NCBI GenBank assembly: GCA_902774015.1
Contig: CACYHB010000009.1
Location: 1-54,893 of the forward strand
Length of the DNA stretch: 54,893 bases
From: Oscillospiraceae bacterium
Lineage (GTDB): Bacteria; Bacillota; Clostridia; Oscillospirales; Oscillospiraceae
Direction: 5' to 3'
In this document: piece after piece, positions 5,889 to 54,893 of the stretch
Layout of the letters: each line of letters begins with the position of its first letter
How positions within the stretch are numbered: position 1 is the stretch's first letter
Made by a program: the position numbers and the translations under genes
Notes under the pieces: model-generated
The model's database searches: none
The model's input: only the letters and a program-made list of their open reading frames with translations
Told to the model about the DNA's origin: nothing

Positions 5889-6935
5889 ACGGACTTCAAA
5901 GAGATCTGCGACGCGCTGGAAGAGCGCTATCCCCAGTGGGCCGGCAGGCTGCGCATGCTCTCCTTCCGGGAGGGAGCGGGCTTCGGCCCGGTGGACAACA
6001 ACGGCCGGGAGATCCTCTACAACGAGCGGCTGATGAAGTACTATACCGAGGAGAGCCGCCGCTTCTACGTGGCCCAGCAGCTGCTGCATCTTCAGCTCAA
6101 CCACTTTGCCAGGGGCAGGGGGAAGGACCGGCGCCTCTGGAAAACCGCCAGCGACGCGGTGGTCAACGCCATGCTGAAGGCCGACGGCTTCGCCCTGCCG
6201 GAGGACGCGGTGCTCCTGCCCGGCGCGGGAGATCAGAGTGCCGAGGACCTGTACGCGCTGCTGCGGCAGCAGCGGAAGGACACGGACGAGAGCGGGCGGG
6301 AGACGGAGCCGATGATCCGCGAAGTTAGGCCCGACGACAAGAGCAAACAGGCCGGCAAGGAGAGCGAGGCCCATCTGCGCGCCATTGAGGACCCGGGGCT
6401 TGCCGCCATCGTGGCGGGACTTGCGGAGCTGCTGGAGCCCAGCATGCAGCTGGATTTCGACTGGTTTCCCGGCACCACCATCCGGGACGGGGTGCTGGGG
6501 CATGAGTTCCGGGCCTATCCGGTGGCCCACGCGGAGATCCTGCTGGACACCAGCGCCTCCGTGGACGCGGAGCTGCTGCGCGCCTTCGTGCGAGGAGTAA
6601 AAGGCCTCCTGCGGCAGGACGCGGTGGTGCGCGTCGGCTGCTTTGATACCCGCTTTTACGGCTTTCAGGACGTTGTGACCGAGCAGGATATCGAAAAGCT
6701 GGAGCTGAGCGGCGCGGGCGGCACGGACTTTCACGCCGCGATCCACGCCTTCACCGGAGATGCGGAAAACCGCATCATCTTTACCGACGGTTTTGCCGAG
6801 ATGCCCGAGGAGCGCTGCGACGCGATCTGGGTGGTCTACGGGAATACGACGATCCACCCCATCGGCGGCCGCGTGATCTACAGCCGGCCAAACGAGGAGA
6901 AAGAGAAGCATGAAATCGATTTTCTTATCACTTGA
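5889..6935 (+). CDS. VWA-like (DUF2201-type) protein with degenerate metallopeptidase motif, putative ACG start
   Basis: A 348-residue protein if it starts at ACG 5889. The reading frame is open further upstream, but only through the tandem repeats, and it contains no ATG, GTG or TTG between the promoter and residue 23. A strong GAGGAGGGG sits 6 bases before the ACG. The N-terminal half resembles the DUF2201 putative metallopeptidase domain, but the usual HExxH reads QQLLH at residues 63-67. The C-terminal half is VWA-like with MIDAS residues DTSAS near residue 220, GGTDF and FTDGF. It overlaps the MoxR-type ATPase gene by 26 bases, which suggests a two-component ATPase/VWA machine. Function unknown. 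The ACG could also be a sequence variant of ATG. Confidence 0.75.
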   Translation, partial: TDFKEICDALEERYPQWAGRLRMLSFREGAGFGPVDNNGREILYNERLMKYYTEESRRFYVAQQLLHLQLNHFARGRGKDRRLWKTASDAVVNAMLKADGFALPEDAVLLPGAGDQSAEDLYALLRQQRKDTDESGRETEPMIREVRPDDKSKQAGKESEAHLRAIEDPGLAAIVAGLAELLEPSMQLDFDWFPGTTIRDGVLGHEFRAYPVAHAEILLDTSASVDAELLRAFVRGVKGLLRQDAVVRVGCFDTRFYGFQDVVTEQDIEKLELSGAGGTDFHAAIHAFTGDAENRIIFTDGFAEMPEERCDAIWVVYGNTTIHPIGGRVIYSRPNEEKEKHEIDFLIT

Positions 6936-8532
6936 ACAGGTCTATGCAAAGCCCCTTGCCCTCTTCGGCAAGGTGGGCTCCGCCGCGCCGGCCACGGATC
7001 TGGCGCTGATGACCGCCCCGGACGACGGCTTTCTTCACGAGAGCGGCGGCGGGATCAACTACTACCTCTCCGACGGCTGCGTGGACCGCTTCGGCCGCGC
7101 CGGCAACTGCGCCGTCTGCGCCGTCCGGCCGGTTCTCCTGCTGGACGAGGGAGAGGAGAGCCTTTTGCGCCGTGTGCACGGGGAGGGCGGCGTTACCACC
7201 GCCGAGTACGGCACGTATCCCACCGTGATCCTGGATCCCGCCCTGCGGGATATGGCGGAGCGGGAGTTTGCCCGGGGAAGCCTCGCAGACACCGGCCGCC
7301 GCGTGCGCGTCGGAGAAGAGGAGGCGCCGGTCTGGCGGCTCGGCGCCAAGGAGCTCGTGCGCGTCACGCTCCGGCAGGGCGGCGTCAACGGCTATGTAAG
7401 TCTTTCGGACGGGAGCCTGGTGGGCGAAGGGGAGAGCGTTTTTCTGGAAATGCGCCCCGTGCGCTGGCTCTATGACGAGGAGAAAGCCCTCCTTGTGAGC
7501 TGTCAGGCGCTCTTCGGCGGCATGAGCCGCGAGGAGGCCGCCGCCTATCTGCGGGAGGACTTTATCAAAGAGCTTTGTACGGCCGACCAGAGCGAGGCAA
7601 AGGACAGAGCCTTCCGGGTGGAGGAGCATGACGAGCTGAGCCTGATCCGCGCCTATGTGAAGGCGGACATCCCGGTCTTTCTCCACGGCCTGTCCGGCGA
7701 CGGCAAGAGCGACCGCGTCCGGCAGATCGACCCCCTGGCGCTGGACATCGAGCTGGTGAACGAGAACCCCGACACGATCAACGGCCGCGCGATCTACAAC
7801 GAGGCGAGGGACGAGATCGTGGACGTCAAGCCCGTCTGGCTGGTGAAGCTGGAGCGGCTCTGCGAGGACGGAGAACTCCACATCCTCTTTTTCGATGAGC
7901 TCACCAACGCCACCAAGCAGACCCAGTCGGTGATCTTCAAGATCGTGCTGGAGCGCTTCGTGAACAACCGCTGGCCGCTGCCGGCGAACGCCCGCATCGT
8001 GGCCGCCGGCAACGACCGCAGCGAATCCAGCGCCGCCCACGACCTGGCAGAGCCCCTCTTCGGCCGCTTCGCCCACATCTATATCCGCACCACCGTGGAA
8101 AACTGGATGCCCTGGGCCGTGCGAAGCCGCATCAACCCCTACGTGATGGAGTTTCTCGCGAACAACGACCTCTACCTGCGCACACCCTTTACCGGTACCG
8201 AGGGCAACGCCGATCCCCGCCGCTGGGAGATGGCGTCCAGGGCGCTCGACAGCTCCGGCAACGACTTCTCTCTGCTGGAACCCATCGTGGGTCGGGAGAC
8301 CGCCGAGAGCTTCATCCGCTTCTTCAAGGCCCAGGAGCAGCTTGCGGCCCTCGGCGAGTACAGCGACGAGGAGCTTGCGCGCTTCAGCGTGGCCCGGCGT
8401 TATCAGCTGGCCCAGCAGTGCCTGTATCTGGCCGCGGCCAGGCCGGAGGAGGCCAGGGCGCTGGTCCGCCGCCTCGGCGCGGAGTTTGAGGCCTGGTTCG
8501 ACTATATGCTGGAGAGAAAGAGCCTGCTGTAA
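6910..8532 (+). CDS. MoxR-type AAA+ ATPase with extra N-terminal domain
   Basis: A 540-residue protein. The AAA+ core is in the C-terminal half: Walker A GLSGDGKS, Walker B LFFDE, and a sensor/arginine segment around AAGNDRSESSAAHDLAEPLFGRF. This fits MoxR-like ATPases that work with VWA proteins to remodel or activate targets. The first 200 residues or so are not AAA+; a segment ending in VRPVLLL recalls DUF6273-like domains, a weak by-eye match. GAGGAG lies upstream of the ATG, inside the previous gene, and the 26-base overlap points to translational coupling. In most pairs I know of the ATPase gene comes first; here it is second. Substrate and role unknown. Confidence 0.8.
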   Translation: MKSIFLSLEQVYAKPLALFGKVGSAAPATDLALMTAPDDGFLHESGGGINYYLSDGCVDRFGRAGNCAVCAVRPVLLLDEGEESLLRRVHGEGGVTTAEYGTYPTVILDPALRDMAEREFARGSLADTGRRVRVGEEEAPVWRLGAKELVRVTLRQGGVNGYVSLSDGSLVGEGESVFLEMRPVRWLYDEEKALLVSCQALFGGMSREEAAAYLREDFIKELCTADQSEAKDRAFRVEEHDELSLIRAYVKADIPVFLHGLSGDGKSDRVRQIDPLALDIELVNENPDTINGRAIYNEARDEIVDVKPVWLVKLERLCEDGELHILFFDELTNATKQTQSVIFKIVLERFVNNRWPLPANARIVAAGNDRSESSAAHDLAEPLFGRFAHIYIRTTVENWMPWAVRSRINPYVMEFLANNDLYLRTPFTGTEGNADPRRWEMASRALDSSGNDFSLLEPIVGRETAESFIRFFKAQEQLAALGEYSDEELARFSVARRYQLAQQCLYLAAARPEEARALVRRLGAEFEAWFDYMLERKSLL

Positions 8533-8549
8533 ACCCAAAAAAGAAACAA

Positions 8550-8602
8550 GCCCCGCAGATTGTTAACCAGAGACGTTGAAGAAGGTTGACAATCTGCGGG
8601 GC
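8550..8602 (+). promoter_or_regulatory. BirA (biotin) operator within a 19-bp-arm palindrome
   Basis: ATTGTTAACC (8559-8568), a 15-base gap and GGTTGACAAT (8584-8593) match the known biotin-repressor box of Firmicutes. The dyad extends outward with GCCCCGCAG/CTGCGGGGC to 19-bp arms, so the same sequence may also form a terminator-like hairpin for the MoxR unit ending at 8532. It overlaps the -35 of the following promoter, as expected for a repressor site. The linked birA encodes a DNA-binding biotin ligase. Confidence 0.85.
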
Positions 8603-8614
8603 CTGTGCTATTTT
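8586..8614 (+). promoter_or_regulatory. BirA-controlled promoter for bioY-birA
   Basis: A perfect -35 TTGACA (8586-8591), a 17-base spacer and TATTTT (8609-8614). The -35 lies inside the right half of the BirA box. The predicted transcription start is near 8621, only about four bases before a repeat element begins, so bioY is now almost 500 bases downstream of its promoter. Confidence 0.75.
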
Positions 8615-8624
8615 GATGCGGAGA

Positions 8625-9083
8625 AATGTATGGGTTTTGTCGGGCTGCTTGCGCGAGTTTAGATGCGCATTGCGCCCCCCTATCTTTCTTTTCGGTACTT
8701 GCCCGAAAAGAAAGACAGTGCCGCGCCCGGTGGAAGAAAGAAAAGGGCGCCCCAAGGACGCCATGCTTTCTGCGCTTCGCCGTTCGCGGAATGGCTTCGC
8801 TTCGCTCGCGCCGCTGCCTGGATGCTGAGTTTACGAGCCGCCGGAAAGTGCTTTCCTGCGCTTTCGTGCTGTACAGTATAGCGGCAGCGGACACCCGGGC
8901 GCACCCGGCATGCCAACATTCGGACGGCGGCGACCCTGGCTGGGCTTTCCCCAAAAGCCTCTGGGCAAGCGGCCTTTCTCTTTGGAGTACAAGAACCGTT
9001 TCTCTTTCCGCAAGAGGAAAGAGAAATGGGTCTTGAAATACGTAGCCTGCCCGCTCTGAGCGGCTGGGAAGAACCCATACATT
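8625..9083. mobile_element. MITE-like element, 459 bp, 12-bp terminal inverted repeats
   Basis: The ends are perfect 12-bp inverted repeats, AATGTATGGGTT (8625-8636) and AACCCATACATT (9072-9083). Inside are further dyads, including CTTTCTTTTCGG with CCGAAAAGAAAG near 8690 and TTTCTCTTTCC with GGAAAGAGAAA near 9000. Its right-hand part recurs in inverse orientation at 54751-54893. Reading frames inside it look like nonsense, so it would be non-autonomous. I could not see a clear target-site duplication. It lies between the BirA-controlled promoter and bioY. Confidence 0.7.
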
Positions 9084-9115
9084 CAATTCATTGATAACCA
9101 AAGGAAGTCAGGCAC

Positions 9116-9658
9116 ATGAAAACAAAGACCACCCGAGAGCTTGCCATGATCGCCATGGGCGCGGCGCTGATCGCCGTCTGCTCCTGGATCGCCGTACCCG
9201 CCGCCATCCCCTTTACGCTGCAGACCTTCGCCGTCTGCCTCGTGACGGCGCTCTTCGGCCTGCGCATGGGACTCTGGACCGTGGCGGTCTATCTGCTGCT
9301 GGGGGCCGTGGGCGTGCCGGTGTTTTCCGGCTTCAAGGGCGGTCTCGGCGCTCTGCTCGGCGCCACCGGCGGCTATCTGGCGGGTTTTCTGTTTACGGCG
9401 CTGGTCGTTGGCCTGGCGGTGGATCAATTTGGCAGAAAGCTCCCGGTCCTGATCGTTTCTATGGTATTGGGCATCCTTTTGTGCTATACTTTCGGTACCG
9501 CCTGGTTCGTCCTCGTCTACTCCCGCAGCAGCGGGCCCATCGGCGTGGGGACGGCCCTGGGCTGGTGTGTGCTGCCCTATCTGCTGCCGGACGCGGTGAA
9601 GATCGCGCTGGCTACGCTCTTGGTCGGGCGGCTGTATCCGATCCTGAACAGAGGATGA
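9116..9658 (+). CDS. bioY: Biotin transporter substrate-binding (S) component
   Basis: A 180-residue, very hydrophobic protein with about six membrane segments. The N-terminal AMGAALIAVCSWIAVP and the IPFTLQTFAVCL segment are typical of BioY, the biotin-binding S component of ECF transporters. No energising EcfA/EcfT genes are here, so it probably shares a module encoded elsewhere. AAAGGAAG lies about 8 bases before the ATG. It is followed 4 bases later by birA, which pairs biotin uptake with biotin attachment and sensing. Expression should be repressed by biotin-bound BirA at the operator near 8575, unless the intervening repeat changes this. Confidence 0.93.
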   Translation: MKTKTTRELAMIAMGAALIAVCSWIAVPAAIPFTLQTFAVCLVTALFGLRMGLWTVAVYLLLGAVGVPVFSGFKGGLGALLGATGGYLAGFLFTALVVGLAVDQFGRKLPVLIVSMVLGILLCYTFGTAWFVLVYSRSSGPIGVGTALGWCVLPYLLPDAVKIALATLLVGRLYPILNRG

Positions 9659-9662
9659 TACC

Positions 9663-10631
9663 ATGATAAAAGAAGCGATCCTTGCCTGTCTGCGCGATCA
9701 CGCGGAGCGCTATGTCTCCGGCGCCGCGCTGGCGCGGGAACTCTCCGTCAGCCGCACGGCCGTATGGAAGGCGGTGGAGCAGCTGCGCGCGGAGGGCTAT
9801 GCCATCGAATCGGCGACAAACCGGGGCTACCGCCTGTGCGCTGTGAGCGACGTGCTCAGCGAGCCGCGCGTGCGAAGCTATCTGAAAAACCCGGGAATCA
9901 CGCCGAAGGTCTACGCCAGTGTCAGCTCTACCAACACGCTGCTCAAGGTCATGGCGGCAGAGGGGGCGCCGGAGGGACTTGCGCTGATCGCGGGCGAGCA
10001 GACCGCCGGGCGGGGCCGCATGGGCCGGAGCTTCTATTCCCCGGCGGATTCGGGCCTGTACATGAGCCTGCTGCTGCGCCCGACGCTCCCCGCGGCGGAG
10101 GCTGTGCGCGTCACCGCCTGCGCGGCCGTGGCCGTGGCGGAGGCGGTCGAGGAGCTCTCCGGCCTACCGGCTCAGATCAAGTGGGTCAACGATATTTTCG
10201 TCGGCGGCCGAAAGGTCTCCGGCATCCTGACCGAGGCCTCCCTGGACTGCGAGAGCGGCGGCCTCAGCTACGCCGTGGTCGGCATCGGCATCAACACCGC
10301 CGTCCCCGCAGGGGATTTCCCACCCGAGCTGCGGCAGATCGCAGGGGCCGCCTTCGGACAGGAGAGGCCGCCGGAGCTGCGCTGCCGGCTGGCGGCGCTG
10401 GTGTTGGACAAGCTGATGGATTTTTATGGAAGGCTGGATGATCCGGCGATCCTGGAGGCCTACCGCCGTCGGTCTCTGATCCCGGGGCGGGAGATCAACA
10501 TCCTTTCGCCCGGGAGGGAACCGGTCCCGGCTACGGCGCTGGCGGTGGAAGAGGACTACAGCCTGCTGGTCCGCCTGCCGGACGGCAGTCTGCGGCGCCT
10601 CAATTCCGGCGAGGTAAGCGTGCGGCTTTGA
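9663..10631 (+). CDS. birA: Bifunctional biotin--[acetyl-CoA-carboxylase] ligase / biotin repressor
   Basis: A 322-residue protein in the size range of bifunctional BirA. Residues 1-60 form a winged helix-turn-helix (LARELSVSRTAVWKAVEQL), so it should bind DNA. The central catalytic domain has the biotinyl-AMP loop GRGRMGRSF, the KWVNDIFVGGRKVSGIL segment and VGIGINT. A small C-terminal domain follows. It joins biotin to carboxylase lysines and, when loaded with biotinyl-AMP, represses biotin genes; the BirA box upstream of bioY is the obvious target, giving autoregulation. It starts 4 bases after bioY. Confidence 0.96.
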   Translation: MIKEAILACLRDHAERYVSGAALARELSVSRTAVWKAVEQLRAEGYAIESATNRGYRLCAVSDVLSEPRVRSYLKNPGITPKVYASVSSTNTLLKVMAAEGAPEGLALIAGEQTAGRGRMGRSFYSPADSGLYMSLLLRPTLPAAEAVRVTACAAVAVAEAVEELSGLPAQIKWVNDIFVGGRKVSGILTEASLDCESGGLSYAVVGIGINTAVPAGDFPPELRQIAGAAFGQERPPELRCRLAALVLDKLMDFYGRLDDPAILEAYRRRSLIPGREINILSPGREPVPATALAVEEDYSLLVRLPDGSLRRLNSGEVSVRL

Positions 10632-54750: not shown

Positions 54751-54893
54751 GCATAGGTTTTGTCCTTCTGCTCAGAGCGGTCAGGCTGCGTAAATCAAGA
54801 ACCATTTCTCTTTCCTCTTGCGGAAAGAGAAACGGTTCTTGTACTCCAAAGAGAAAGGCCGCTTGTCAGAGCGGACGACACATGGTCTAATCA
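54751..54893. mobile_element. Second, inverted copy of the MITE-like element (cut by window end)
   Basis: From GCATAGGTTTTGTC (54751) to the end, the sequence is a close match to the reverse complement of the right end of the 8625-9083 element, including CTCAGAGCGG, the TTTCTCTTTCC/GGAAAGAGAAA dyad and CCAAAGAGAAAGGCCGCTTG. Similarity seems to fade after about 54867. Its outer end lies about 10 bases after the plsY stop. Confidence 0.75.

Follow-up and report, generated by a model that had tools for sequence, protein, structure and literature searches.

A MITE-like element from a dispersed repeat family in the leader of a BirA-controlled bioY-birA operon: probably an old, tolerated insertion

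In the BirA-BioY regulation of Firmicutes, the BirA box lies over the -35 element of bioY, and BirA, with its helix-turn-helix domain, is encoded in the same operon. The locus described here, part of a window of 54,893 nucleotides from an Oscillospiraceae genome, differs from this usual arrangement in that its leader is interrupted by a repeated element. Among small repeats, BIMEs consist of modules that combine in varied orders and orientations; the family of the element analyzed here shares this trait, but differs from BIMEs by having terminal inverted repeats at both outer ends. BIMEs and mosaic repeats are mentioned in the available text of PMC2229807, as are the ERIC/IRU elements of enterobacteria, with which the present element has in common that they are dispersed, mainly intergenic and co-transcribed with their neighbors. 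In contrast, all repeat families in that text are ~100-200 bp long, whereas the window's element is longer and composite.

The closest described case is the Correia (NEMIS) element that directly follows the promoter of mtrCDE in Neisseria gonorrhoeae, for which the accessible part of PMC10969869 reports RNase III cleavage at the repeats as well as inversion. In both cases, a small inverted-repeat element with TA at its tips lies right behind a promoter and yields structured RNA, and inversion is a further common feature (PMC10969869 and PMC2229807, as far as their available text goes). Compared by anatomy and literature, the window's family differs from Correia in its length (459-600 bp), its two subterminal hairpins, its exchangeable interior and the lack of a detected inner promoter. 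Among the literature matches listed (up to 20 per search, in one case 20 of 513), no title dealt with a MITE in a bioY leader or with MITEs of Oscillospiraceae. The arrangement is probably the result of an old insertion of a non-autonomous MITE-like element in the bioY leader, tolerated by an operon that is still controlled by BirA; by analogy, such an event would be of a known kind, closely paralleled by an earlier case, the gonococcal Correia element that follows the mtrCDE promoter.

Operator, promoter and element at the bioY locus

A previous sequence-only reading of the locus had described a BirA box, a promoter with its -35 within the box, an element of 459 bp whose terminal inverted repeats are perfect over 12 bp, and then bioY-birA; all of these coordinates were confirmed by direct reading, promoter scan and Pfam search. 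The genes and signals given below, apart from the strandless dyad, are on the plus strand. The BirA operator-like box (TTGTTAACC-N15-GGTTGACAA), identified by direct reading, spans positions 8560-8592 (half-sites at 8560-8568 and 8584-8592, with 15 nt between them) and lies at the center of a long dyad detected by repeat search (8546-8606; 23-nt arms, 91% complementary, 15-nt spacer), which might have a second role as a terminator. An Rfam scan of positions 8400-9700 returned just one sub-threshold match over this dyad (rdlD, 20.1 bits, with a cut-off of 50) and no structured RNA above the gathering score. The promoter (8586-8614) consists of a -35 TTGACA at 8586-8591, inside the BirA box, a 17-nt spacer and a -10 TATTTT at 8609-8614 preceded by TG, and was the sole consensus promoter found by the promoter scan in 8400-9200 (mean of 0.2 in shuffled sequences). 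Transcription is expected to start at ~8621 (± 2 nt), 7 nt after the -10. With the start so placed, the element begins ~4-5 nt past it, between the kept BirA-controlled promoter and bioY, again in agreement with the earlier description.

Downstream of the element, a Shine-Dalgarno-like AAGGAAG (9101-9107, direct reading) precedes bioY, whose ATG is at 9116 and which encodes the 180-aa S component of a biotin ECF transporter (9116-9658; PF02632, 131.8 bits). It is followed by birA (9663-10631), encoding a bifunctional biotin ligase/repressor of 322 aa with the DNA-binding domain HTH_11 (58.2 bits), BPL_LplA_LipB and BPL_C. On the other side of the box lies a gene of 540 aa (6910-8532), without a Pfam match at E 0.001; its position beside bioY distinguishes the genomes that have the insertion site in common.

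The element itself covers positions 8625-9083 (459 bp). Its outer tips, AATGTATGGGTT (8625-8636) and AACCCATACATT (9072-9083), form a perfect 12-bp inverted repeat, expected by chance in a 566-bp stretch with a probability of ~0.01 according to our own arithmetic, and represent the tip of a longer pair of arms (25 nt at 76%, repeat search). From left to right, it comprises an A-type end (8625-8671), a subterminal hairpin A (8672-8726; 24-nt arms, 83% complementary), a subterminal hairpin C (8990-9035; 20-nt arms, 90% complementary) and a C-type end (9037-9083); both ends are degenerate terminal inverted repeats, ~47 nt long at the A-type end, with the outer 12 bp perfect, and are shared with dispersed copies, and both hairpins were detected by the repeat search and in folds. 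A Pfam scan of five open frames in or across the element detected no transposase family, and yielded one chance-level match below the cut-off (E 0.032). As is typical of MITEs, the element is short, lacks a transposase gene, carries terminal inverted repeats and has many dispersed copies.

The dispersed family and its mobility

In the window's own genome (88 contigs, 94% complete), at least 80 BLAST matches to pieces of the element were found, a lower bound given that 40 of 64 candidates were scored, and 33 distinct A-type ends were present in the loci fetched. The best other copy is 88% identical to the window's element over 389 bp. Copies align best in their interior, and both of their ends share a degenerate inverted repeat of ~47 nt with a tip often similar to TATAGGTTTTTCTCC. 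Behind each end lies a hairpin of either type A (near GCGCCCCCC..TCTTTCTTTTC) or type C (near CCATTTCTTTCC). Among 36 two-ended elements, all had one A and one C end except for one C/C and one A/A element, so that the ends appear to be exchangeable. Many of the 36 have no clear tip pair; the window's tips, matching at 12 of 12 positions, were the fifth best, after those of L025, L201, L181 and L012, and in L001, L010, L012, L025 and L181 the left and right tips are equally far, to within 1 nt, from the inner anchor. The other two-ended copies span 278-622 bp between inner anchors (pairing was limited to ends 250-680 bp apart), and the longest distances in own-genome loci were 618 and 579, besides one 10.4-kb gap to an unpaired end.

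The family was present in 4 of 40 sampled genomes, own included. Matches in sister genomes numbered 16 in G060, 41 in G061, 6 in G062 and 9 in G064, with none in G063 at E 0.001. Tips containing TA were seen in family copies; an IS630-type DDE_3 transposase was found in none of the three genomes searched (own, G060 and G061).

Mobility was evaluated on five own-genome copies, located in two stretches of 19.9 kb, by comparison with sister genomes G060 and G061. Three of the five copies (C1:22766, C23:30980 and C23:34975) face an empty orthologous gap of 20-98 bp in one or both of them, so that the occupied and empty states expected of a MITE were seen at three other loci, not at the bioY site. 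Of the remaining two, copy C1:37812 faces 1.8-2.1 kb of other sequence, and at C23:22249 a different insert is present in both sister genomes. Direct TA or AT repeats are possible at the tips, the intergenic flanks being too diverged to read the length of a duplication from the empty sites. These comparisons indicate that the window's element belongs to a dispersed MITE-like family and was probably once mobile.

Further observations concern individual copies. In locus L204 (positions 2242-2709, own genome C23), a family copy corresponds to an insert of ~450 bp in both sister genomes (G060:C13 and G061:C3), which contains an apparent open frame and is bounded by inverted TTTTGAG-rich repeats; the product of this frame presumably resembles a four-helix-bundle (IVP-like) protein. 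Copies joined tip to tip were seen in L019, L008 and L020, the junction in L008 and L019 being a shared CTATAG or GTATAC. A further family piece occupies positions 54770-54865, near the end of the window's contig, and other contigs (e.g. C43, C24, C18, C32 and C4) likewise end in or near family copies; therefore, these repeats probably break the assembly. Covariation of the tips, i.e. tips that vary between copies and pair within a copy, was considered for the 36 elements and discarded, as the slight advantage of own over cross pairs that was seen across the outer 50 nt (equaled in 43 of 5000 permutations) was absent from the tip zone (4231 of 5000).

Inserts in the bioY leader of related species

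A bioY scan of the genome contigs resulted in 80 loci. Of 80 relatives, 57 have a BirA box (≤3 substitutions) ahead of bioY, including all of the 25 nearest (L061-L085), and 51 boxes had at most one substitution, a threshold reached in none of 40 shuffled 1-kb stretches. The distance from the end of the box to the start codon was 38-102 nt in 49 of the 57 boxed loci (median over all 57, 61 nt), and relatives with another gene order mostly have short leaders, measuring 47-62 nt in L064-L066 and L068-L077. The gene order of the window (540-aa gene, BirA box, bioY, birA) was found at four loci: the window itself, L061 (RUG12356), L063 (SRR873600_bin.36) and L067 (RUG498). The 540-aa gene is matched in 46 of 102 genomes of the genus, in a few of them weakly, and among its best 30 loci four, own included, have bioY within 1.5 kb, the other three having the same leader regions as L063, L061 and L067.

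All four of these loci carry an insert or a remnant of it, and the recent insertion envisaged in the sequence-only reading was accordingly not borne out. In L061 the element is 600 bp long and oriented as in the window, in L063 it is 597 bp long and reversed, and L067 retains a ~62-nt remnant of an A-end (12.5 bits, bias 6.5, against 4.6 bits for the best of 200 shuffles; E 0.0016, E-values for such degenerate ends being rough). When 25 leaders were searched, matches at E ≤ 10 occurred solely in these three loci and the window. Identities over aligned columns were 75% between the window and L061, and 74% for both the window and L061 against reversed L063, compared with 65% and 68% in the wrong-orientation control with L063 unreversed. 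The distance from the box to the start codon is 675 bp in both L061 and L063. The condition named for refuting the earlier reading, that relatives all carry the same 459 bp, thus applies in part: an insert was found at the same site, but its length (600 and 597 bp), sequence (74-75% identical) and, in one case, orientation differ.

The BirA box pattern is present without substitution in all four species, and the promoter is also kept in all of them. The A-end points toward the promoter in the window, L061 and L067, and toward bioY in L063, which would therefore represent the derived state. The relatives are metagenome-assembled genomes, and leader regions were identical in L063/G129, L061/G109 and L067/G099, leaving one assembly per species; since each species rests on one assembly, the inversion in L063 could be an assembly error. 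A same-gene-order empty site was not found among the four, so that insertion at the bioY locus is inferred from the family and from the other loci.

Based on these comparisons, the remnant in L067 and a single origin of the insert appear fairly supported; such an origin is likely, and one insertion followed by exchange of the interior and inversion in place is the simplest account, short of proof. The non-autonomous element would have entered the operon in the narrow space that separates the -10 from the ribosome-binding site, most likely in a common ancestor of the four species found. Later, it would have swapped internal parts with other copies, turned around at its site in one lineage and, in another, been worn down to a single end. 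The window's insert is closer to the copy elsewhere in its genome (88% over 389 bp) than to that of L061 (75%), which also fits independent insertion or replacement.

Repeated insertion at this spot has to be weighed also in view of two other families of small repeats found in the same short gap. Locus L062 (85% BioY identity, different upstream gene) carries an insert of ~165 bp with ends GGCAATACC.., flanked by a TTAG repeat (by reading), whose family has 24 matches in its own genome, 16 of them ≥99 nt, itself included. Locus L078 carries an insert of ~160 bp with ends CTAATCCTT.., the site being empty in its relative L081; this third family has 17 matches in the L078 genome and 14 in that of L081, and the left border of the insert gave no clean match to the empty site, a duplication of TA or of ~8 bp being possible. 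No meaningful similarity was detected among the three inserts (best E 0.44). Altogether, 5 of the 25 nearest boxed loci have long leaders, derived from the three families, and 8 of the 57 boxed loci exceed 140 nt from box to start. Among these eight, L120, L094 and L129 were not counted as inserts, as by reading L120 has an apparent coding frame between box and gene, and L094 and L129 look like cases of an earlier start codon.

It is conceivable, though improbable, that the spot after the bioY start was hit repeatedly, the window, L061 and L063 having acquired their copies separately or by later replacement. The two additional families, the closeness of the window's copy to its paralogue and the reversed copy in L063 are in line with this, and so are the C-ends of the window and L061, which rank 9 and 11 for each other instead of being mutual best matches among 177 candidate ends (a set that includes internal C hairpins, the "C-end" taken for L063 being such a hairpin and not its true C-end). 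On the other hand, the A-ends of L061 and L063 are reciprocal best matches in that set, and the A-end of L061 is the joint best match of the window's, tied with an unrelated end (28.0 each); the window's A-end ranks that of L063 19th. The right flanks, moreover, abut the tips at about the same position (by reading). Insertion in the gap from the -10 to the ribosome-binding site alone spares operator, promoter and translation, so that the coincidence of place can be explained by survivorship, and no hot spot is claimed, considering the dozens of copies per genome and the permissive space limited to this gap. A single insertion followed by exchange and inversion continues to be the preferred reading.

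The position of family copies relative to promoters was compared at a larger scale. Across 136 family ends, 21 strong promoter-like sites were directed into the element; as counted with one hand-made score, the -10 lay -1 to 12 bp from the edge in 11 of them and 20-40 bp from it in none. Because four of the 11 are bioY sites orthologous to one another, and L017 and L141 form a further pair that is orthologous judging by the flanks, they correspond to ~7 loci, two of them weak. A first count on 72 ends showed no clear excess (8/72 over threshold at the edge, vs. 4/72, 7/72, 5/72 and 3/71 in shifted controls); when the threshold was raised, there were 10 inward sites within 400 bp, of which 6 sit at 0-20 bp. 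We regard as quite unlikely a broader interpretation, in which three families of small mobile repeats repeatedly enter, or are kept at, the start of the bioY transcript and the window's family settles at transcription starts. If it were true, the adjacency of 11 of the 21 sites would be in keeping with elements that enter active promoters at the melted start region and then invert in place, with regulation spared. Survivorship, given short native leaders, accounts for the promoter adjacency as well as targeting does. The family provides a set of promoter-adjacent insertions useful for asking whether small transposable elements favor transcription starts. Copies in L010 (~1400-1985), L012 (~1440-1940), L017/L141 and L147 begin about -1 to 4 bp past the -10 of a strong inward promoter-like site, and downstream of the L010 element lies a start codon with a Shine-Dalgarno-like site.

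Leader RNA and control of the operon

Under the preferred reading of an old, tolerated insertion, transcription would start ~4-5 nt before the element and read through it, giving a leader of ~495 nt instead of ~36; the ~460 nt of extra RNA would fold into stable hairpins, with the ribosome-binding site located after the element. Biotin control should be unchanged, because operator and promoter are wholly upstream of the element. The element would represent tolerated baggage, since box, promoter and genes were preserved and its content and orientation were not.

The sequence-only reading had also raised the possibility of an element-borne promoter that bypasses BirA. The promoter scan detected neither a consensus sigma-70 promoter nor a plus-strand terminator inside the elements of the window and L061, and in L063 found just a weak match (9/12, at 2357-2385) ~30 nt after the native promoter, across the edge of the element. 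Promoters of their own are known for Correia and other MITEs, as far as the available text of the sources goes, but these results, together with a BirA box free of substitutions in all four species, make it very improbable that the element frees bioY-birA from BirA.

The predicted fold of the element is very stable (-216 kcal/mol, z -4.4, none of 100 shuffles as good). The ten pairs probed in hairpin A (8684-8693 with 8705-8714) and in hairpin C (8998-9007 with 9018-9027) had a mean pair probability of 1.00 in all 21 folds. Whether the tips paired with each other depended on the fold, with a probability of ~0.98 when up to 45 nt of bioY were included and ≤0.04 with 60 or 85 nt; a tip-closed hairpin hiding the insert from the ribosome, seen in one fold, was lost with at least 60 bases of bioY and was discarded. 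The predicted openness of the ribosome-binding site showed no consistent trend (0.27 in the window, or 0.49 with the flanks joined without the element, 0.59 in L061 and 0.68 in L063).

Such stability, the full-length inserts kept in three species and the precedent of Correia at mtrCDE (in the accessible part of PMC10969869) would be compatible with a functional part of the leader, in which the hairpins, as targets of RNase III-type enzymes or as a protection of the 5' end, set the life or the translation of the bioY-birA mRNA. However, content, length and orientation vary between species, L067 has lost most of the element, and tip pairing and openness of the ribosome-binding site change with the fold and the species, respectively, so that we consider this role unlikely. 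Plausibly, the element may act in a modest way, by letting RNase III-type enzymes cleave its hairpins or by altering mRNA life.

An old insertion, tolerated in the leader, suggests that a regulated vitamin-uptake operon of an uncultured lineage can carry several hundred bases of hairpin-rich repeat in its leader over the long term with its operator kept. The four species, with the element forward in two, reversed in one and eroded in another, together with L062, L078 and the empty L081, constitute a natural series on leader inserts and expression. The dyad around the BirA box also recurs in this series: long dyads were found in L061 (24 nt, 96%) and L063 (27 nt, 85%), and a shorter one of ~18 nt, by reading, in L067. 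On the minus strand of the window, a T-rich run (TTGTTTCTTTTTT) follows the 8546-8606 dyad.
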